Assembly (NCBI GenBank): GCA_001600495.1
Contig: BCKE01000050.1
Coordinates: 83,177 to 147,176 of the forward strand
DNA length: 64,000 nucleotides
Reading direction: 5' to 3'
DNA from: Pilasporangium apinafurcum
Lineage: Eukaryota > Oomycota > Peronosporomycetes > Pythiales > Pythiaceae
Shown here: positions 3,396 to 52,673 of the stretch, in pieces
How the letters are laid out: every line of letters starts with the position of its first letter
How positions within the stretch are numbered: position 1 is the first letter of the stretch
Notes under the pieces: generated by a model
What the model was told of the DNA's origin: nothing
The model's database searches: none
Seen by the model: the letters and a program-made list of their open reading frames with translations, nothing else
Position numbers and translations under genes: made by a program

Positions 3396-5612
3396 TCAGT
3401 TATGCCACATCGCGGTTTGCCTCGAGACAATGTCATCGCCGCATTCGCTTGCGGCGCGACGCAATCGGTATGCCACGTCTACAGATGTGGGCCTGGCAGT
3501 AGGATCGGCTGCAAGGCAATCTCGAGCTAATTCTTGGATCACTAGGGGGCACTCAACTCGAAAGGTTGGCATCCAGGCCTCTGTAATGATATGATGCAAC
3601 AGTACGTCCTCACGCATCATCAGTCCTGACCGTAAAACCATGCGTTCGTGGAAGGGCAGTTCGTTTGTGTCGATCTCGGAGAGAATAACTCCAAATGCAT
3701 ACACGTCGCTGGCCATAGAGAATGGATGAGAGCCAGTGAGCAACTCTGGCGCCTTCCATCTGTCGCTCCTGAAGGAGGCAGTTCCACTTATGGAGCTGCA
3801 ACTACTGTTACTGGACAATCGCTCAAGCATAAAGTAATGCGTGTCGAAAGATTCTTGGTTATGATCGATAACCTGATGTGCAGAGCCAAAACCAGCGAGT
3901 TTGGCGTGCAGATCATCACAGAGGAGAACATCCTTGGATGCCAAACCGCTGTGTATGATTGCAGGGTGTTGCGAATGCAAGTAAACCAGTCCTTCAATGA
4001 TATCCACTGCTATTCGCCACTGATGCTTCGTCCACCCATCGCTATTATTGTTGGCGTTGTAGTGGAAAATGCTCCTTCGTTCGTGTTTCTCGCGATCCAG
4101 AAACGCACGCAATTCCCCCTTTGGCAAGAACTCCAGCATTAACTGCACATTCTCCTCTACTGTCCACGCTACGCCCAGAAATCCCACGATACGACAGTGA
4201 TCGAGTCGACTGAGTAACTTGATCTCACGTACAAAACGTCTCAGCAATTCTCTTCGGTTGCGATGGTTAGTGTGGATACTGTGTTCGTTGAGACGCTTTA
4301 TCACGACTGGCTGCGACCTGTAATAGGCTAGCCAAATCTCGTGAGAGCCGTTACGCTGGAGCTGTTTGTGCTTCTTAATGGCACCAAAGTCGACTCGATG
4401 TCCTGCAAGGGCATCATCCTCTAATAGCGAAGATGACGAGCAGGAAGCCACAGATATTGGTGAGACACTTCTCAATTGATTGAGGTCTTGTTCGCCATAT
4501 TGCTTCGCCGTCAAAACACGATAGTCATCTGTGCCGGAGTAGCCGTGGGCATTGTTGGTGAGCTGGCACAGGCTTGGGTGGTTTGGTTCAGACGAACACA
4601 GTAACCTGCTTGATCTGTGCATGACGTTCGATAAATAGACAGGTAGCGGGTCTTGGCGCATCCGTCGCACCACCACAGAGGTATACTGTTGCTTTTGAAA
4701 CGAATCCTCTTCAAACGTAAAATCCGGGTCCAACTCTTCATCTTCATTGTATTCTACCATTGCTTCTTCATCATCTTGTTGTTGCTGTTGGTGTTTATTC
4801 CTCTTAGTCCTTTCCTTCTGCATCAACTTTCTCCGTCGACTGTAACTCTTCATGTGATGTTTAAAGCAATGCGCCCAAATATCCATGGCTTTCGCACTTA
4901 CAGCACGGAGTTGTTCCTCTTCTGCTAAGAAGAATCGCTGTTGATCACCAGGCATGGCCGTCGCGAGGCTCGTTTTGCGTTTGGCCATGGAATCCGATTG
5001 TTTCTTGTGGATTTCCTTGTCCAATAGATATCCCTGCACGTTGAAAACGCGATCCGATCGGCTTACCAGCTTCACTTGAGTCAGCACAAGCCGCCGTAGA
5101 AGTTTTCCATTCACCGTATTATCGTTTGCGAAGATGAACAACGTCGAGCAGTTGGCTTTGAACACACAGAATCGCCGGCGGTATTTGCGGAAGAATCCTT
5201 CACGACGCCATATCCAGCCGTTCAGCCGTATTGGTATGTGCTTGCTACCACCAACAAACGAACGATGCTTCTCTTCGACATACTCGTAGATACCTTCCTC
5301 AGGGTCTTTCAGTGTGCGAATCGCCACATTTGATGATGATGATGAAGAAGCTGAAGTCGTATAAGTACTGCCATTGTAGGTCTCTTCGTCCCAGGAAATC
5401 GCTGAGGACTCGGAAGAGACTGTGGATTGATCAGCCAATGAGTGATGGAAGTGTTGATGCTGAGGATAACCGCGATCCAGTAAGAGTCGCATGCTGATCC
5501 TGCTACCTGTGGGTATCACAGTTGGGATATCAATGGGGAGGATAGCGTGTGGAGGAGGTGGTGGTGGAGAAGGAGGGAGGCGATTGGTGTTTCCACGCAG
5601 GAGAGTGGCCAT
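3396..5612 (-). CDS. PH-domain TKL-family pseudokinase
   Basis: 738 residues from an ATG at 5612, no intron needed. After a Pro-rich N-terminus comes a pleckstrin-homology-like domain (about residues 125-250: LNGWIWRREG, FRKYRRRFCVF, ending in an amphipathic helix with W and KHHMKSY), likely lipid-binding. An acidic, Gln-rich linker leads to a TKL kinase fold (about 410-715). The VAIK lysine is kept (K439, VVIKRL) and so is APE (WKAPELL). The catalytic HRD is H554-S-G556, the catalytic-loop Asn is D561, and DFG is G574-F-G576. With both catalytic and metal-binding aspartates gone, phosphotransfer is unlikely. The frame is intact over the full length, so this looks like a kept pseudokinase rather than a decaying gene. 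Probable role, by inference: membrane-linked scaffold or allosteric regulator. Confidence 0.88.
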   Translation of the reverse strand: MATLLRGNTNRLPPSPPPPPPHAILPIDIPTVIPTGSRISMRLLLDRGYPQHQHFHHSLADQSTVSSESSAISWDEETYNGSTYTTSASSSSSSNVAIRTLKDPEEGIYEYVEEKHRSFVGGSKHIPIRLNGWIWRREGFFRKYRRRFCVFKANCSTLFIFANDNTVNGKLLRRLVLTQVKLVSRSDRVFNVQGYLLDKEIHKKQSDSMAKRKTSLATAMPGDQQRFFLAEEEQLRAVSAKAMDIWAHCFKHHMKSYSRRRKLMQKERTKRNKHQQQQQDDEEAMVEYNEDEELDPDFTFEEDSFQKQQYTSVVVRRMRQDPLPVYLSNVMHRSSRLLCSSEPNHPSLCQLTNNAHGYSGTDDYRVLTAKQYGEQDLNQLRSVSPISVASCSSSSLLEDDALAGHRVDFGAIKKHKQLQRNGSHEIWLAYYRSQPVVIKRLNEHSIHTNHRNRRELLRRFVREIKLLSRLDHCRIVGFLGVAWTVEENVQLMLEFLPKGELRAFLDREKHERRSIFHYNANNNSDGWTKHQWRIAVDIIEGLVYLHSQHPAIIHSGLASKDVLLCDDLHAKLAGFGSAHQVIDHNQESFDTHYFMLERLSSNSSCSSISGTASFRSDRWKAPELLTGSHPFSMASDVYAFGVILSEIDTNELPFHERMVLRSGLMMREDVLLHHIITEAWMPTFRVECPLVIQELARDCLAADPTARPTSVDVAYRLRRAASECGDDIVSRQTAMWHN

Positions 5613-19312: not shown

Positions 19313-20166
19313 GGTTGTGCCGTTAGAATGTGGAGGGGGCGCTTGGGTGACTACTCCGTGTCTTTGTGTCGATATGCCTTGTGCATTTGCTGGCTGGATG
19401 GAAAATGGGTTAAGCTCTTGGGAAATCACAGATGAGGCGAAGTACCCAATGGAAAAAGATGGTAACCTATACCAATGTAGATTTATACAAAAGATACAAT
19501 ATCGAATTTAAAACTACAATTACTAAACTAACGTAAACTTACACAGATCATAGATTATTTGAAAAAGTTGCAAAACAAAAAAGCCTAACCCTCGAAAAGT
19601 ACAGAATGTTGCCATAACAACAGCAGTATTCATTCGAGAAGAAAAGGAATGATGAGTGGATTTCTTTCTCTTCATTAACAATAATGGCGTTGTTGTATCT
19701 TTCTGGATGACGGGGAATACAACGTCACTGGGTGGTGCCAAAGGTACGCATGCAATACTGTTACCACTAACGGAACTTGGTGAAGGTTTCAAAGACTTCA
19801 ATATACATTTCGAGCACCTTATGACGATTCTTACCATTGATTGGCTGTATATTTGGTTATTATTAATTGTGGACCAATCAAATTTACTCTTTATTATTAC
19901 CCTAATGCCATTTTATCCACTGATGTTATTATTGGCTCGGGAATGACGATACAACAAGGTTCACTGTACTGTAGCAGACCATATTAATCGAACGGCATTC
20001 TCATTACCATCATTCTCATCCGCAAGAATGTATTTGATTAGCGAGCTGTTCTGCATTCACTCATGACTTGGCGGAGTTTGCTGATCGGTAGGCAGCCATT
20101 TCCGCACTTCATTTGCACGTGAAACCATCGTTCCCAGGTTGTTTCCCATTGACAAAGACGATTCAC
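19313..20166. other. intergenic, divergent 5' regions
   Basis: This lies between the EF-hand gene (-) and the GIN-domain gene (+). If the EF-hand protein has an additional upstream exon, it would lie here: the frame stays open to 19429 without an ATG. Short frames at 19523-19837(-) and 19656-19946(+) show no domain. Confidence 0.45.
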
Positions 20167-21561
20167 ATGCAGTTATCACTACTTATACAAGCGCTGGTAT
20201 GCACCTGGGTACTGTTCTTCTTCTCAGCGAACGCAGTTTTCGAAATCACAAGTGACGCCACAGTCTCCATTGACGACGTTGAGCTTAAAAACAAGCACAT
20301 CCTGGTGCAGAAGACTTGGTCAATCCTGCAACGTCAAGACTCGCTTTTCCAATTCAACGAAGAAGCACTCCAGGAACTCGAAATCTCAGTCCCAGGGCGT
20401 GTGTTCATTTCGTCGTCGTGGAGTTCATATGATGAACCGTTTGCAACTGTAAAGTTTTCGGGCAGTGCTCCGGAAGTTCTCGAAGATTTTGATGTTGTTT
20501 CTGAGGAAACGGGTAAGCTCTCGATTCGGATGAAACCAGTATCGCTGTCTCAATGGCTGGAAGGATATTTGCTCGTGGAAATCACGCTCAGTCACTCGCG
20601 GCAATTGCAGAAACTGACGAGCAAAGGTTCAGGTGATATCGTCGTGCAGGAACAAGTTCTGTTCGCCAACACGCCACGGTTGTCGTGGCTTGGACAATCT
20701 CTCTCTCCATCTTCACAAGGAAAAACTTGTATTAATGTCAGTGGTAGTGGAACTGTCTACATCGACGAATCGGAATCACTGGATGTGAAAACGCTGGCGT
20801 TGAGCGTGTCAGGCAGTGGCAATGTTCAGGTTGTCGCTCCGCAGGTGCAAGTAGATGAAATAGACGTTCGCGTGAGTGGAAGTGGCAGTGTCTCCATGCT
20901 TGTAGACTCTTCCATCCGCGTATCTTCTTCTGCGAATATTGATACGACTGGTTCGGGAGATGTGTGTGTGCATACTGAAGAATTCACCGCCAACTCTATT
21001 GATGCTTTCACTGCTGGAAGTGGTGATATCTCTATTGCTGCCTCCCAAGGCTCCTGCAAGAAAGAAGGCATTGTTTTACTCGGCTCCGCTGATATTCTGC
21101 TTGGCTCGCTGATGTGTGAAGAGGTGACCGCCAATCTCGCCGGTAGCGGTGAAGTGCTTGTGCAAGCTACGCGCTTCATCACAGGCGGCTGTCTGGGCAG
21201 CGGTGACATTAAATACGTAGGCTCACCACCAGATAAAATCGCACCAAAAACCAAAATCGCCTTCTTCCACAACAACAAAGACAACAAGCCCCCGAAACCG
21301 CTCGCAAAAGCAGCGAAAGCTAACAAAGTGCGCACATGCCGACGTCGGCCGCTCCCGAACCGGGAACCTGTGCACATCACGCTCAACATTTCACCGTTCG
21401 GATTGCCTATGAGGCGCAAGATGATGGTCCCATTGGTAGTGGTAGCAGTGCTTGCAGCATGGTTTGTGTATCGAGAAAACAAGAAACGCCAAAGTCACCA
21501 TCAGCGGTATCAACGTGAGCTAGAACCCCTCCAATCCACGCAGAGACAGGTATACATTTAG
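20167..21561 (+). CDS. surface protein with GIN-type (DUF2807) beta-helix domain
   Basis: 464 residues from the ATG at 20167; the frame extends to a TTG at 20113, but this ATG opens a clear signal peptide (MQLSLLIQALVCTWVLFFFSANA). Residues of about 180-375 repeat short strands punctuated by VSGSG, TGSGD, AGSGD and LGSGD turns, the signature of the 'putative auto-transporter adhesin, head GIN' family (DUF2807), common in Bacteroidota. A Lys-rich linker precedes one membrane helix (MMVPLVVVAVLAAWFVY) and a short basic cytosolic tail. Likely a plasma-membrane or wall-facing protein; the ligand is unknown. A paralogue lies at 50835-52673. Confidence 0.88.
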   Translation: MQLSLLIQALVCTWVLFFFSANAVFEITSDATVSIDDVELKNKHILVQKTWSILQRQDSLFQFNEEALQELEISVPGRVFISSSWSSYDEPFATVKFSGSAPEVLEDFDVVSEETGKLSIRMKPVSLSQWLEGYLLVEITLSHSRQLQKLTSKGSGDIVVQEQVLFANTPRLSWLGQSLSPSSQGKTCINVSGSGTVYIDESESLDVKTLALSVSGSGNVQVVAPQVQVDEIDVRVSGSGSVSMLVDSSIRVSSSANIDTTGSGDVCVHTEEFTANSIDAFTAGSGDISIAASQGSCKKEGIVLLGSADILLGSLMCEEVTANLAGSGEVLVQATRFITGGCLGSGDIKYVGSPPDKIAPKTKIAFFHNNKDNKPPKPLAKAAKANKVRTCRRRPLPNREPVHITLNISPFGLPMRRKMMVPLVVVAVLAAWFVYRENKKRQSHHQRYQRELEPLQSTQRQVYI

Positions 21562-45957: not shown

Positions 45958-46345
45958 GAAAGATATTAGCATGGAGATGAAGGAAAATGAACGACTGGGT
46001 GTTTTGCATATCAGTGAAGGAAAAATGAAAGACGCTGAGCAGTGGAGAAAATTATTTTTTGTGAATGACGTTGACTCTTTTTGCATTAAATAAGCAAGTA
46101 GAGATGTAGCGAATGAATGGATGAGGACAGCCCTGTTAGTTCAAAATTGCATGTTGAAATACCACAGCTTATATAATCTAGACGGAGAATGATGTCTCCG
46201 CGTTGTGATGCCTCCAACTCCACGACTGACAACTAGGATTGCTACTGGGACTGCTGCGATCATCGCTATCCTTTCGCAGGATTTACTTGCGTTAATAATA
46301 AAAGACGAAAACTCCCCACTCATACACATCATACTTCCTATTCAC
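45958..46345. other. 3' intergenic region between convergent genes
   Basis: The zinc-knuckle gene (+) and the receptor-like kinase gene (-) converge here. Nothing else is seen in about 390 bases. Confidence 0.5.
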
Positions 46346-48885
46346 TCATACAGAATCCGAAATTGGGATAGCGACTGCTACTGCATCATCATTGTTTTCG
46401 GCGCTCTGTATTTTTGCATGTGCTTCAGCTTCTTTGAGTTCGACCAGGATTTGCTGAAGTTTCTGCAGGATCTGTTTGCTGCTCGGACGTTTTTTGGGTG
46501 CGTACTCGGTGCAAGCGTTGATCAATTCGCCAATCATGGGGTGACACGTCGGTGACAATGTCGGAGAGAGTGCTCCTTTTGCAATCAATTGCAAAATGTC
46601 AGTCTCCGGGAGAGCGGATCTGTTTGCCTGCATCAAGTCTGAGAATGGCAGCTCGTGAGTATCCATCTCTGACATGATAATGCCCAAAGAATAGACATCA
46701 GCAGCGTCACTAAACGAACTTCCCGCTGCGGTATCTCGCCCCATAAACACTTCTGGAGAAATCCATCGTCCGGAGCCGACGGCACTGTATGCCATACGCT
46801 CTCGTTCCGAGAGCATTTCTTTCGGTGACCCGAAATCGCTCAACTTTGCACGCATTTGATCGTTCAACAACACATTCCGGGAATTAAAATTACCATGAAC
46901 CAGCCGCGGTTGCATTGAATGCAAATAGATCAAAGCGCGTGTCATGTCGATCAGCATTTGAACCTTCATAGCCGACCACTTGCCAGATAACTTGACACCA
47001 GTGCGATGCAGCCATTGTCGCAAATCCCCCTTTGACATGTACTCGGTGACTGCGACCAAGTGCGTCTCCATCGACCATGTGATGCCGATGAACGCCACAA
47101 CATTCGGATGCGAAAATTGCGCTTGCCGCTTGACCTCCGCCTTGAATTTCTCGCAGTCATTGGTGTTTGGATCATCATGACGCGGAGGAATCCATTTCAG
47201 GACGACCTGCTGTTTATGTTCCTTGCCGAGTGGATCAAAGGTCGTATACATCCCCAACCAAACTTCATTGCCGCTCACAGCATTATCTACACTTCCTCGT
47301 CGGACGGTATGTCGTTTTTGGTTGGGTGTCGTCATCAGTGTATTCATCAATTTGATTTGCTTGAAATCTAATCGCCATGGTTCCAGTTCTTCGTCGACCC
47401 AAAAGTTCGCGCTATAGGTCTTCACACGTCGTGGTTCAAATGCAGTAGGTGATGGTTGTACCTGTAACCTTGGTGAAGAGGGCTGTGTCGTTGTTCGATC
47501 ATCGGGGAAATCGCATGCCGCGCGATGTTCCTCACTTGCCTTCCGTTGTCTTGCATAGGTACTTTTAAAGTAACAATACAGAAAGAACTTGTACACCAAG
47601 TAAATCCCGGGACCAATTAGGCTCAGCGCTAAGTACGTGGAATCTTTTAACATCAAGTTGAATGAGTTATCCAGACTTCCCGATCCGCTTCCAGAGCTAC
47701 TCGCTGATTCGCTCTGGGAACTGGCAGAGATCGTGGCGACCTGCAAACGGCGTGATATTTTACTACTGGAGACACACACCGTCATGCCCTGAAGATATTC
47801 CATTCGTTCACTAGCAGCACATGGATTCTTCTCGTGCCGGGTACTCAGTGACCGCGCTGATGACCCAGATTGAAGTAATCGTGAGCGAACAAACTCGTAT
47901 TCGTCGTTCGTCATTTCAATTGGCTTTGCTCCCGCGTCGAATTTATTTCCGTCAAGGGAGAGTTTTGAGAGATTTTCCATCTGAAAAATGCTGGTCCATG
48001 GCAGCTCGTTCATGATACAATCAACAATATGTCTGTAAATTGATACAAAGACAACGAACGAGTGAATGCATTGATAATGACAAAAGAGACCTGGTGAGTG
48101 CACTTACAATTCCGCAAGTGAGACTGGCAAAGAAGGAAACTCTCCAACGATATGAATTCCAGAAAACGTCCTGCAAGTATTCAGAACCAAACACATAAAA
48201 TGCATATATGAGTAAGAGCACCGTTACATCAGGAAATAGTCAGTTGTGACTACGTCTACGTACATGGAGTTTAAATAGGTAGCTCCCGACAAATCGGCGA
48301 GAAATTGGACGGACTTGGCTACTGAAGAATCTCGGTCATTGGATGAGATAGATCTAAACATACAATTCCAAAACAGTTCCAATAACTAAACAAGCACCAA
48401 AATAACTAGGTTGAGACCAGCTGGACGTACAAATGCGAGATATGCGGTGGCGTCACCAGCTCCCCCACACTCTGTAGCTCTTCATTGTCATTCAACATCA
48501 CTTTCCACGCATTTCTTTCTTGTTGCTCTTGAAAAGCTGCGAGGTAAAGACATTCTACCACACATCCATCCGCATCACCTTCTTCACCGTAAAGTTCACA
48601 CCGCGATGGGGACAAAAATGATTGACGGATCGTTGGTTTACTATAACTTTGACAACGTCGTCGAGCATTCGTCGACATTTTTGATCGCTGGTGATATGCA
48701 CAAAGCAAATCTCTTCCATCACCAGGACAGCTATGTGCACAGCCCTGTGTCGTCCAAACACCGTTCCATCGATCCACTTGCGCCATAGACGGACAAACTT
48801 CAGTTGACAAAACAGCAGTAGCAGAAGTAGTCGACGCCGCTGCCATCCAGCTGACGAGACCTACGGTTGCAGTCTTCTTCCACAT
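46346..48885 (-). CDS. LRR receptor-like TKL pseudokinase, five exons
   Basis: Exons 48885-48431, 48353-48264, 48170-48108 and 48032-46346 join in frame with all introns phase 2 (GTACGT..TTTAG, GTACGT..TTGCAG, GTAAGTG..TTACAG); 764 residues. A fifth, upstream exon or an earlier ATG (frame open to 49365) is possible. The protein starts with a signal sequence (MWKKTATVGLVSWMAA), a Cys-rich ectodomain, then leucine-rich repeats (about 140-230: LPVSLAELHIVDC..LPWTSIFQMENLSKLSLDGNKF). One membrane helix lies at about 325-352 and the TKL kinase domain from about 445. The VAIK lysine (K482, VVLKW) and DFG (D602) are kept, but HRD is H582-G-N584, so the catalytic Asp is Asn. Likely a non-catalytic receptor or co-receptor; weak activity cannot be excluded. 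Confidence 0.8.
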
Positions 48886-49881
48886 CGCATTCGGTCGCTT
48901 TTTCCGTCGACTAATCAATCTTGGTGTTACGTGTTGGTTCATTAATTGGTTTTGCATACTGTTTGGCCGGTTTGACATCGTCATCGGCCCGTTACGCACC
49001 ATTCCACATCCACCAAAAAGCTTCTCCTTTTCTAAAGGTTGGCCTAATTTAGAATAAAACGGAAAAGCGAGATGACCCAAGTTGGAATGTGGGTGATTTG
49101 AGTCGAGAGAGCAATGGTGGAAAGCTGGCACGTACAGGTTCGTGATAGAGAGAGAGTAAATTGTATGCAAGAAGCGTAGCAAGAGAGAGAAAAGCGGAGA
49201 TTCTCTTCTTCCCCACAGGCCATCAACCTCTGGTTCGCTTCCCTCTTCTGAATATATTGTTTTCCCCCAGTGATGGGGCAAAAGAATGGGAGAGAGTGGA
49301 TGTAACCTACATGCGTAACCAGGCGTAACTGTGCGTGGATTAGCCCCGTTTTTGTGTCTTGGCAATGATTTTCCCCCAATCCGCTCCGACTCTCTTGCAA
49401 GAGATAGGAGAAAATGTTGCTGAAAGTTGCAATAAAGTTGTTAATTAAACATTATGTTGCTTACCATCCTGGTGAACGTTGCATGTTGTAGGTTTTGTTG
49501 ATGGGGTGGGAACGTTCTTATAATTCAGGCTGTTTAGTGGATGGGCAAGATACTGTAATTTCTCAGTAAAGTTGAATAACTGTAAAATGAATTTTTTCAT
49601 AATAAAATATCAAAAATAATGTAAACTTTAACAGTATGATACGGTTCTACTTGGGTATTTTTACAGGAAATGCTCCTTCGAACAGCTCCTACTGATCCCA
49701 CATTCATCTTATTTTCGCAAGCTGTCCATCCATGCGGAAAACGTATGAGATTCCATTTTGTCTGTCTGGCCAAACCTGTCACACTGACTAGAAAACCTGA
49801 CAAACGAATTACATCGAAATCTTATTTTCACTATGACCAACTGCAGGTGTATCTTTGCAAACAGTATGGGGAATTTTTTGA
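48886..49881. other. intergenic; possible upstream part of the receptor gene
   Basis: The receptor frame stays open to 49365, so 48886-49365 could contain a longer N-terminus (MVRNGPMTMSNR..) or 5' UTR. Beyond that nothing is recognised up to the Fanzor-type fragment. Confidence 0.4.
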
Positions 49882-50205
49882 CTAGCATGTCATTCGGCAA
49901 TTCGCCACCATGGCGTCAAAGCGCTCAAGAAGGAACTGGCAAAGCGCACTACCGTTCGTTCCGTCGACGAGTTTCGTACAAGCAAGCGATGTTTCCACTA
50001 TCACGCTAAACTTTCGAAGGTAGTCTTCCCGAAAATGGTCAACGGCGTTCCCGATGGCACAATTGAATCTCGATCCGTTTTTCACTGTGAATCCAGTGAA
50101 TGCAAGACGTTTTGGGATCGCGACGTGAACGCTTCGCTGAATATTATGCGCGTGACGACAGAACTTTTCAATAATCGAGCAAGACCAGAGTACTTGCAAC
50201 GATAA
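49882..50205 (+). pseudogene. C-terminal fragment of a Fanzor/TnpB-family nuclease
   Basis: The plus frame is open from 49882 to TAA at 50203-50205 (107 codons). It reads like the end of OrfB/TnpB and its eukaryotic relatives (Fanzor): GVKALKKELAKR, SVDEFRTSKRC (C at 49990), a second pair CESSEC (50086 and 50101), then WDRDVNASLNIMR, whose RDVNA Asp (50122) is the third RuvC residue. The zinc ribbon has CxxY where CxxC is usual, so one ligand is missing. Everything upstream (RuvC-I, RuvC-II, the wedge and recognition lobes) is absent, and a TGA lies just before 49882. A nonfunctional remnant of an RNA-guided transposon-associated nuclease. Confidence 0.83.
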
Positions 50206-50340
50206 TCAAGTGAGTCGTAGAAGCGCAAAAAAAGCGTGAGTTCGGGGTCTTCGGACTTGAACCTGCTCGCACGGTACAGCCCGTATTCTAGGTGTAGCCA
50301 CTTGGTAGGCGCAACTCGCGAAGCGAGTTGGAGTAACCTA
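50206..50340 (+). ncRNA. structured 3' flank of the Fanzor fragment, possible omega-RNA remnant
   Basis: Directly after the stop the sequence is more GC-rich than its surroundings. It contains a perfect 8-bp stem with a GAA loop (CAACTCGC 50312-50319, GCGAGTTG 50323-50330) and a small stem closed by TTCG (GTC 50247-50249, GAC 50254-50256). In TnpB and Fanzor elements the guide RNA (omega-RNA) comes from this position, at the 3' end of the gene and element boundary. The position and structure fit; transcription and conservation are not shown, so this is an inference. Confidence 0.4.
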
Positions 50341-50834
50341 GTTAGTAGAAGTAGACCAGAAAAGAATACATGAGCACATAGCTGGCCAACTAACGTCACA
50401 CTTGACGCCGATCTTTGTCATAAATCTCTGGGATTGGCCCTGTACTGTGTATATAAACCGACATGCACATATTGTACCATTGTGTAAAACATGGATAACT
50501 AGTAGGAGAGACAAAGCCAATAGTCATTAACTGGTCTGCTAGCTCCATTCAGAGGCTTTGAGCCAGAAATCACCTAATGTTCAATGAAGGAATATTCAAC
50601 TTACAACCAAGAGAAAAGCCATACCAAAAACACAAATCGTGTTCGCAAATGTATTTTCAAAAAATTTCCCGATTTAAAAGAAAGCAAACGCTGCACAAGC
50701 TCACAGGATAAGTTGTATCCAAACGAGTAGCACAAAAGTAAAAAAAATGGGAAATGAACTAACGTGCTCTTAACAAAGAAGAAGAAAAAACAAAACCAAG
50801 CAAGATGAAAGACAAATCATTGTCCATTGCTTGT
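50341..50834. other. intergenic, nothing recognised
   Basis: This lies between the Fanzor remnant and the 3' end of the second GIN-domain gene. No gene or repeat is seen. Confidence 0.45.
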
Positions 50835-52673
50835 TTACACGAGTGGGCGGTAGTGGCGGCGCATACGCACTTGACGGACCTTTTGTACGGCAACCACGAT
50901 AATCGCCAGACCGGCAGCGACAGATGCCAACATGAGCCAAGCATTGGGGCCATGTGCGACGGTGTTCAAGTGGGTCGACATGAGCGATACGAAGTTGACA
51001 GGCTCAGGTACAATCGTCACGCGCGGGTCGTCATAATGCTTAGTCTTCTCCGTCGCCAACAAATAGTACAGAGGGTACTGATCCGGGGCAGGTACAGCCG
51101 TGTAGGGAACCACGGTGTTGGCCTCAGCTGGATGTACAACCGACTCAGCCGTACGCCAGAACCACCAGCCAACCTTGGTCTTGATCGTCTTCGGACGAGC
51201 GTTTATGTATTTCACCTCGCCAGTAATCCCCGCCGACGCTACGAGCTTCTCCGACACTTGTACGATGACATCCGCCGAGCCCGAAACCGACACATCTGCA
51301 AACTTTGCAGCCACATAACCGGCATAAAACTTACCCGATCCAGAAATTTCCAAATTCTCCTTTGTGACGAGACCCGCCGATGCAAGGCTGACGGTTCCGG
51401 CGCCTGCTAATTTAAAGTCGATCGCATACAAATCGATCTTGTTGGATTCAACAAAGAAGCTGCCAATTCCAGCCACTGCACCATTGAGTTCATCCGCCTC
51501 GAAGTTGGACGCAGCGAGCACAGCAACGCTGCCTGTGCCGGAGATTGCGACATCCAAATCCTTTCTCAATTCGAGCGAAGGAAATTGCAATTGCACTTTG
51601 CCCGTACCAGCGACATCGACGCTGAGTGATTTCAGAGAGACGTCATTGGTTTCCGTGATATAGATGTTACCGATACCAGCTGTGGAGATGTCGACGTTGA
51701 CCGAGTCATCGTCATGTACGAGCACACCATCTCCGATCACGACATCGCCCAAAATCTCGGTGGCAATGGATCGCAGCGTGTGCTTATCGAACAAGTAAAT
51801 GTGCGTCAACACATAACCTTCAACGACAGCATCTTTGTTCTTAAAGTGAAGCTTGATGCCATTGCTGTCAGTTTCAACGACCTCAATCAAGTCTATGAAG
51901 TCGCTCGAGTTACCCGTGATTACGATTGTAGCGATCAGATCCTTCTTCTTGCTGAGGCTCAAGGTATCTTCAACCGAAATTTCTTCAACTTCACGACCAT
52001 CATGCGAGCCAAGGAATCCTTCTTCCGAGTTGTAGCCGTATCTGTCAATAGATCCTGTTGGTTCTTGACTTTTTTCATCATTCGAGTCATCGTCATAAGT
52101 CGATTCCTCTGTGCCTTCAGTTTCTTCAGAACCAGAAGAGGTATATGTCGAGTCAGGTACTCCCGAATCAGTTGATGACGCTGCCTCATTGGATCCTGAG
52201 ATTATGAGCACGTCATCGCTAGCCGAAGACGTTTCTTCTCCTCCATTCGAACCCTTCACTACAACCACTTCACCGCTGGATGAGGCTTCATAGCCATAAT
52301 ATCCCTCATCACTTGCTGACTCGCTGCTACTATATACGGTAGGTGTCGTCGCCGCTGGTGTTGGTTCCGGACTCACCACAGGTGTCTCAGTCGGTGCTTC
52401 TGTTTCTGGTTCAGGTGCGGGTGCAGCCTTGGGCTGCAGCGAAGAATCCAATTCCACAAACACGGGGCCGGGGATCAGCACTAGGAGTTTCTCGATTTGG
52501 TCTTTATCGCTCGTGATTCTCCAGGTGCGTTCCAATGTTTGGTGCTCACCTCGCACATCATCTGGTGGTGCAACCTCTGAAGATTGGATGGATAACGCAT
52601 TTGTCGTAGCAGTAGGTAACAGCATACCAACCGCTGCAGACGCAGCCACAAGCAGCACTGTCGAGAGCTTCAT
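50835..52673 (-). CDS. second GIN-type (DUF2807) surface protein with Ser/Glu-rich stalk
   Basis: 612 residues, ATG at 52673, signal peptide MKLSTVLLVAASAAVGMLLPTATTNA. Residues of about 90-240 are a Glu/Ser/Thr/Pro-rich stalk with acidic repeats. The GIN domain (about 325-515) alternates strands with turns such as STAGIGNI, VAGTGKV, ISGTGSV, VAGIGSF, ISGSGKF and VSGSADV. One membrane helix (WLMLASVAAGLAIIVVAV) precedes a short Arg-rich tail. It is a paralogue of 20167-21561 in domain plan, but the turns differ (AGIG/AGTG rather than SGSG) and the stalk is unique here. Probably cell-surface. Confidence 0.88.
   Translation of the reverse strand: MKLSTVLLVAASAAVGMLLPTATTNALSIQSSEVAPPDDVRGEHQTLERTWRITSDKDQIEKLLVLIPGPVFVELDSSLQPKAAPAPEPETEAPTETPVVSPEPTPAATTPTVYSSSESASDEGYYGYEASSSGEVVVVKGSNGGEETSSASDDVLIISGSNEAASSTDSGVPDSTYTSSGSEETEGTEESTYDDDSNDEKSQEPTGSIDRYGYNSEEGFLGSHDGREVEEISVEDTLSLSKKKDLIATIVITGNSSDFIDLIEVVETDSNGIKLHFKNKDAVVEGYVLTHIYLFDKHTLRSIATEILGDVVIGDGVLVHDDDSVNVDISTAGIGNIYITETNDVSLKSLSVDVAGTGKVQLQFPSLELRKDLDVAISGTGSVAVLAASNFEADELNGAVAGIGSFFVESNKIDLYAIDFKLAGAGTVSLASAGLVTKENLEISGSGKFYAGYVAAKFADVSVSGSADVIVQVSEKLVASAGITGEVKYINARPKTIKTKVGWWFWRTAESVVHPAEANTVVPYTAVPAPDQYPLYYLLATEKTKHYDDPRVTIVPEPVNFVSLMSTHLNTVAHGPNAWLMLASVAAGLAIIVVAVQKVRQVRMRRHYRPLV

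Follow-up and report, generated by a model that had tools for sequence, protein, structure and literature searches.

A decayed Fanzor fragment and a probable Helitron 3' terminus in an oomycete contig

An intergenic region of the 64-kb window (the whole stretch of DNA that was analysed) carries the C-terminal end of a gene for a Fanzor/TnpB-type protein, and the 136 nucleotides that follow its stop codon close with a hairpin and a CTAG tetranucleotide in the geometry of a canonical Helitron 3' terminus. We consider it probable that a Helitron with a Fanzor gene left this dead relic, which has lost its 5' part and kept an intact 3' end. Such elements are a known kind: Bao and Jurka (2013, PMC3627910) already described Fanzor genes in the Helitron2 elements of Chlamydomonas, and in Fanzor1-carrying Helitrons they frequently found the 5' part missing and the 3' end intact.

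The homology of the protein, its decay, and the geometry and rarity of the hairpin, CTAG and T are observed; from them we infer that the element was a Helitron, and that the Fanzor gene and the terminus belonged to one and the same element. The gene would be oriented toward the 3' end of this rolling-circle transposon, and the right end would consist of the Fanzor stop and 136 nt, the last of which make up a 19-nt hairpin, a 7-nt spacer and CTAG, with a T of the host thereafter. In an active relative, the hairpin would be expected to fold in the DNA, to stall the helicase and to designate the CTAG as the nicking site of the Helitron transposase, and the Fanzor protein would act as an RNA-guided nuclease.

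Homology and decay of the protein fragment

The fragment lies on the plus strand at 49882-50205 and consists of a reading frame of 107 amino acids (49882-50202) and a TAA stop codon (50203-50205), with an in-frame TGA directly upstream (49879-49881). The initial annotation had recognised the segments DEFRTSKRC and DRDVNASLNI in the order typical of the C-terminal end of TnpB and Fanzor proteins, and both are indeed found in this order in the one frame. Residues 22-88 match the Pfam family PF07282, which covers the zinc ribbon and RuvC-III of TnpB/Cas12f, at an E-value of 1.8e-9 and 38 bits, above the Pfam cutoff of 26.3 bits. Furthermore, the fragment matches PHROG 506, a transposase family (E 8.3e-7), and the NCBIfam model guided_TnpB (E 2.7e-6, 26.9 bits); the cutoff of the latter, 100 bits, is set for the whole protein, and a score below it is expected for a fragment. 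The three matches bear out the proposal of a TnpB/Fanzor remnant and support a homology to RNA-guided nucleases of this type that exceeds chance, in a copy that is truncated and inactive. The superfamily motif given in PMC3627910, in the part of the text that defines it, consists of [TS][TS]xx, a C4 zinc finger and RD within 5-50 residues; the fragment has, in this order, TSKRC, three of the four cysteines, and RD.

The zinc ribbon (49990-50103) is degraded. Cysteines are encoded at C37 (49990-49992), C69 (50086-50088) and C74 (50101-50103), and a tyrosine (Y40, TAT, 49999-50001) stands at +3 from C37, where the CxxC of bacterial TnpB has its second cysteine. The loss of one zinc ligand had been noticed before, and its placement at Y40 follows from the spacing, the MAFFT gap in this region having fallen elsewhere. 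The missing fourth cysteine is read as decay. The RuvC-III motif DRDVNASLNI (50116-50145) includes D81 (50122-50124), at the place of a catalytic aspartate of the family. In a MAFFT alignment of six sequences, the fragment and five TnpB-like C-termini (three bacterial and two from viral contigs), the invariant columns include C37, C74, W78, R80-D81-V82-N83-A84 and N87. The loop between the knuckles of the fragment (28 residues, Y40 to C69) is longer than in the aligned TnpB-like proteins, and its second knuckle reads CxxxxC where theirs reads CxxC or CxC. The predicted structure of the fragment is poor (mean pLDDT 55, pTM 0.31).

Truncation, likewise stated in the initial annotation, was confirmed by the upstream TGA and by Pfam searches of the three forward frames from 48103 to about 49900, which returned no Fanzor/TnpB domain besides the fragment itself and no match for the region with the RuvC-I aspartate and RuvC-II glutamate. 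We therefore limit the claim to a remnant of a Fanzor/TnpB gene. As only the C-terminus is left, with no further Pfam match upstream, a TGA before the frame and a lost zinc cysteine, this remnant is dead.

The surroundings justify the name Fanzor. Pfam was run on ten of the 22 window ORFs of at least 250 amino acids, and these are of eukaryotic type, with a glutaminyl/glutamyl-type tRNA synthetase with WHEP, two kinases, EF-hands, FYVE plus DUSP, a chromodomain and three Myb repeats; since the genome thus looks eukaryotic, "Fanzor remnant" is a fair label. Fanzor1 and Fanzor2 are told apart by the DPG and alternative-glutamate RuvC signatures, the REC2 domain and clade position (PMC10711439), and these signatures all belong to the lost upstream portion. 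Its left neighbour is a kinase ORF (46346-48103, minus strand, Pfam PK_Tyr_Ser-Thr), and its right neighbour is an ORF that matches DUF2807 in Pfam (50835-52673, minus strand). A second minus-strand ORF matching PK_Tyr_Ser-Thr lies at 3396-5612, and an ORF at 20113-21561 on the plus strand resembles, by eye, the DUF2807 ORF in its repeated GSG/GTG strand-like motifs, so that the two are possibly paralogous.

The 3' flank and its terminal hairpin

The non-coding 3' region between the stop codon and the proposed element end (50206-50341, plus strand, 136 nt), which would hold any omega-RNA, contains two stems in its centroid structures. The first, at 50240-50262 in the RNA fold, is a TTCG-capped stem that had been pointed out previously; it is present, if imperfect, with 4+3 bp. 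The second, at 50312-50330, is a perfect 8-bp stem with a GAA loop, 19 nt in all, which appears in both RNA and DNA folds exactly as first annotated, and whose stem is 62% GC. It is followed by the 7-nt spacer GAGTAAC, by CTAG (50338-50341) and by a T (50342), the would-be target-site T, such that 11 nt separate the hairpin from the end of CTAG. The range of the initial annotation, which ended at 50340, was one base short of this end. The loop context GCGAAGC is that of a DNA mini-hairpin of exceptional stability and would fit a function in single-stranded DNA.

Canonical Helitron 3' ends carry a GC-rich hairpin of 16-20 nt at 10-15 nt (or 10-12 nt) from a terminal CTRR, mostly CTAG, and insertion occurs between A and T (PMC6591975; PMC5148889, in their passages on terminal structure). 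In Helraiser, an experimentally tested element, the terminal CTAG is joined to a T and has a 19-bp palindrome 11 nt away from the end, the hairpin acting as the transposition terminator (PMC4778049). The corresponding Helitron1 arrangement, with the hairpin 10-15 nt from CTRR-3' and a T thereafter, is present here at 50312-50342. Because hairpin, distance to CTAG and following T all match the canonical terminus, we read them as a probable Helitron end.

The initial annotation had related the flank to the omega-RNA of these nucleases by position, structure and strand. Position and strand hold; the structural part finds no support in fold energy. As a whole, the flank folds no better than shuffled sequence, either as RNA (-41.9 kcal/mol against a shuffle mean of -39.1, z -0.79, with 38 of 200 shuffles as stable) or as DNA (z -1.17, 27 of 200). 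Rfam gave no match in 50206-50341, and its one sub-threshold match lies outside, on the minus strand at 50120-50135. The omega-RNA claim thus has only position and strand behind it, and the hairpin, which fits a Helitron terminus, is better explained as such a DNA terminus than as an omega-RNA marker.

Element boundaries and other transposon types

The first alternative to be weighed is that the fragment derives from an element other than a Helitron, such as a Mariner, with the hairpin as part of an omega-RNA scaffold and CTAG-T as a coincidence. Some Fanzor1 elements of Pythium ultimum are indeed Mariner elements (PMC3627910, in its account of that species), and the omega-RNA of SpuFz1 lies downstream of the gene and spans the 3' (right) end of its element (PMC10432273, in the section on this RNA). 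Inverted repeats were searched between 48103-49900 and 50206-50835, with 40 shuffles. At 11/12 matches, 10 pairs were found (shuffle mean 3.2, maximum 11), at 12/14, 17 pairs (mean 4.9, maximum 17), and at 15/17, one pair (mean 0.05, maximum 1); none was found at 16/20 or 18/24 between these two regions. The counts are above the shuffle mean yet inside the shuffle range. The 15/17 pair (48725-48741 and 50371-50387, 17 nt) flanks the fragment and, at a shuffle mean of 0.05, speaks for this alternative; it has no target duplication, however, and was not accepted as the element ends. Another pair, 49868-49881 and 50657-50670, was rejected for the same reason. All listed inverted-repeat pairs had a target duplication of 0, and ends of the Mariner type (terminal inverted repeats plus TA duplication) were accordingly not found. 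This result, the ordinary RNA stability of the flank, its lack of an Rfam match, and the CTAG and T at Helitron distance, for which a non-Helitron element does not account, make this alternative unlikely.

The boundaries of a Helitron were also sought on the other side. Canonical Helitrons begin with 5'-TC next to an A, a dinucleotide too short to search for. The longer 5' end consensus TCTMTAYTA was not found in 46100-50299 (plus strand, at most one mismatch); this counts against the Helitron reading, as does the lack of a transposase noted next, but would be expected of a 5'-truncated copy. Similarly, no RepHel match was obtained at a Pfam E-value of 1 or better in the scanned frames of the 2.7-kb intergenic region 48103-50835 (three forward to about 49900, one forward after 50206, three reverse), as is expected of a non-autonomous or truncated copy. 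An asymmetric inverted repeat of the Helitron2 type between 50285-50311 and 46100-49900 was absent at 10/10, 11/12 and 12/14, a result that a lost 5' end would give as well. Base composition sets the region apart, with a GC content of 0.48 in the fragment and 0.54 in the flank against 0.36 and 0.38 on either side. Segmentation by base composition gave 49672-50566 as the best segment; the 95% ranges of its limits (49606-49920 and 50281-50658) are both broad and did not place the element ends.

Rarity of the terminal arrangement

The arrangement of hairpin, CTRR and T could also have arisen by chance beside a Fanzor relic, in which case there would be no terminus at all. Hairpins as such do not argue against this, since perfect stems of at least 8 bp occur at 8 distinct loci of the window (12 rows of output) and are no rarity there; 20 shuffles average 6.65 rows with a maximum of 12. 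The hairpin at 50312-50330 is the only one of these 8 with a CTRRT at up to 18 nt, whichever the orientation, and in shuffles of the 136-nt flank a perfect stem of at least 8 bp with a loop of 3-8 nt arose in 13 of 2000.

We scanned both strands of the 64-kb window for perfect stems with loops of 2-5 nt, located 4-11 nt before CTRR+T, and compared the counts with 60 whole-window shuffles. With stems of at least 8 bp, the site described here is the only one, against shuffle means of 0.17 (CTRR+T) and 0.017 (CTAG+T), each with a maximum of 1. With shorter stems the contrast fades: the same single site is found at 7 bp or more before CTRR+T and at 6 bp or more before CTAG+T, each against a shuffle mean of 0.67, and stems of at least 6 bp before CTRR+T occur at 8 sites. 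Weaker forms are thus frequent, and the Helitron-end signal hinges on the 8-bp stem together with its location in the Fanzor flank. When 50206-50400 was shuffled 30,000 times, the complete arrangement, 8-bp stem included, arose 8 times with CTRR+T and 3 times with CTAG+T, and shorter stems gave 28 (7 bp, CTRR+T), 110 (6 bp, CTRR+T) and 71 (6 bp, CTAG+T); as the Helitron pattern was recognised after the sequence had been viewed, the shuffle figures are somewhat favourable to the Helitron reading. The single copy examined leaves some room for chance; the 3 to 8 shuffles of 30,000 speak against it, and a chance origin is quite improbable in our estimate.

A minus-strand sequence at 48401-48412, AACCTAGTTATT, matches 11 of 12 positions of AACCTAGTTAGT, which spans the proposed end (50335-50346). 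No comparable hairpin was seen before the AACCTAGTTATT copy, and pairs of this quality arise in shuffles (mean 3.2).

That a Helitron merely inserted beside, or captured, an older unrelated Fanzor fragment with which it never worked is the least credible explanation and a very improbable one, for although Helitrons capture and mobilise gene fragments (PMC4778049, in its treatment of capture) and the left boundary was not found, Fanzor1 in Helitrons is established elsewhere (PMC3627910, as far as its account of these elements goes), and the shared strand and the 136 nt from stop to end are as expected for an element's own gene.

Relatives of the fragment

No repeat of the fragment occurs within the 64-kb window, so that a single copy was examined. 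In viral contigs, the Fanzor-style pattern DE[YF]RTSKxCxxC had no match, and neither had the exact hairpin sequence. A search of the viral contigs for close relatives with the fragment itself gave 6 pattern matches, none of which was confirmed. The pattern W[ND]RDVNA[AS]xN matched in 6 viral contigs; their proteins are TnpB-like by eye, and no Fanzor was recognised among them by eye. Profile searches confirmed 1 of 15 matches in viral contigs and 19 of 40 in genome contigs, all 19 of them bacterial by their titles (L008-L026); the viral contig agrees in length and matched range with a Brevibacillus contig among the genome contigs; of the 20 confirmed loci, 12 were translated and 3 were aligned with the fragment. 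The pattern and profile searches of viral and genome contigs together recovered no eukaryotic Fanzor. The bacterial TnpB proteins share the zinc ribbon and the WDRDVNA motif with the fragment, with up to 75% identity over 16-20 residues.

Searches elsewhere gave weaker matches. A tblastn search of phages with the fragment returned 8 weak matches (best E 0.6), and plasmids gave no match at an E-value of 1. Against solved structures, phmmer found one Transposase chain (E 0.94), and the trimmed core found one unrelated protein (E 1.8). The profile A1 retrieved 40 sequences from the same structures, 29 of which are, by name, of TnpB, Cas12 or Fanzor kinds; it matched the mimivirus TnpB-like L79 at 5.5e-8, and the Fanzor1 of Guillardia theta only at E 0.21.

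Significance

On its own, the relic has no function. Should there be intact relatives, the presence of Fanzor on a canonical Helitron would, in eukaryotes, join an RNA-guided nuclease to a single-strand HUH transposon. The authors of the SpuFz1 study raise this parallel in their discussion (PMC10432273). The idea that Fanzor helps to retain transposons would then also become testable. The case carries a warning as well: a hairpin that follows a Fanzor gene on its 3' side may mark the end of a transposon and is then no sign of a guide RNA. No Fanzor carried by a canonical Helitron ending in CTAG was found in the parts covered of the Fanzor, Helitron and oomycete literature, which is not to say that none has been published.

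Comparison with known systems

In its right end, the relic resembles Helraiser, a canonical Helitron1, in that a palindrome of 19 nt stands 11 nt from a CTAG-3' end and a T follows (PMC4778049); unlike for Helraiser, a 5' end and RepHel were not found around the fragment, which is a single copy. With PUl-1 and PUl-4 of Pythium ultimum, which carry Fanzor1, it would share the setting of a Fanzor gene in an oomycete DNA transposon. These elements have terminal inverted repeats and TA duplications in the description given by PMC3627910, whereas around the fragment no pair with a target duplication is present. The relic is also like CRe-1, CRe-2 and CRe-3 of Chlamydomonas reinhardtii, in which a Fanzor gene sits in a non-autonomous Helitron-type element, copies of which have often lost the 5' part and kept the 3' end. 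As characterised in the relevant part of the same source, these are Helitron2 elements with asymmetric terminal inverted repeats, hairpins at both ends and a TTTT target, whereas the right end described here is of the Helitron1 type (hairpin, CTAG, T), without such an inverted repeat at 10/10, 11/12 or 12/14.

One sequence could serve both as Helitron end and as omega-RNA, because the omega-RNA of SpuFz1, with a 75-nt scaffold and a guide of 14-15 nt past the element end, itself spans the 3' end of its element (PMC10432273, in the section on this RNA). We tentatively put forward, as a possibility that is rather doubtful at present, that in this genome Fanzor is carried by a family of canonical Helitrons ending in CTAG, and that the terminal hairpin serves doubly, as the DNA stop of rolling-circle transfer and as the last RNA stem of the guide scaffold, with the guide starting at 50342. 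If true, this arrangement would parallel in eukaryotes that of IS200/IS605, whose right end serves both an HUH transposase and TnpB.
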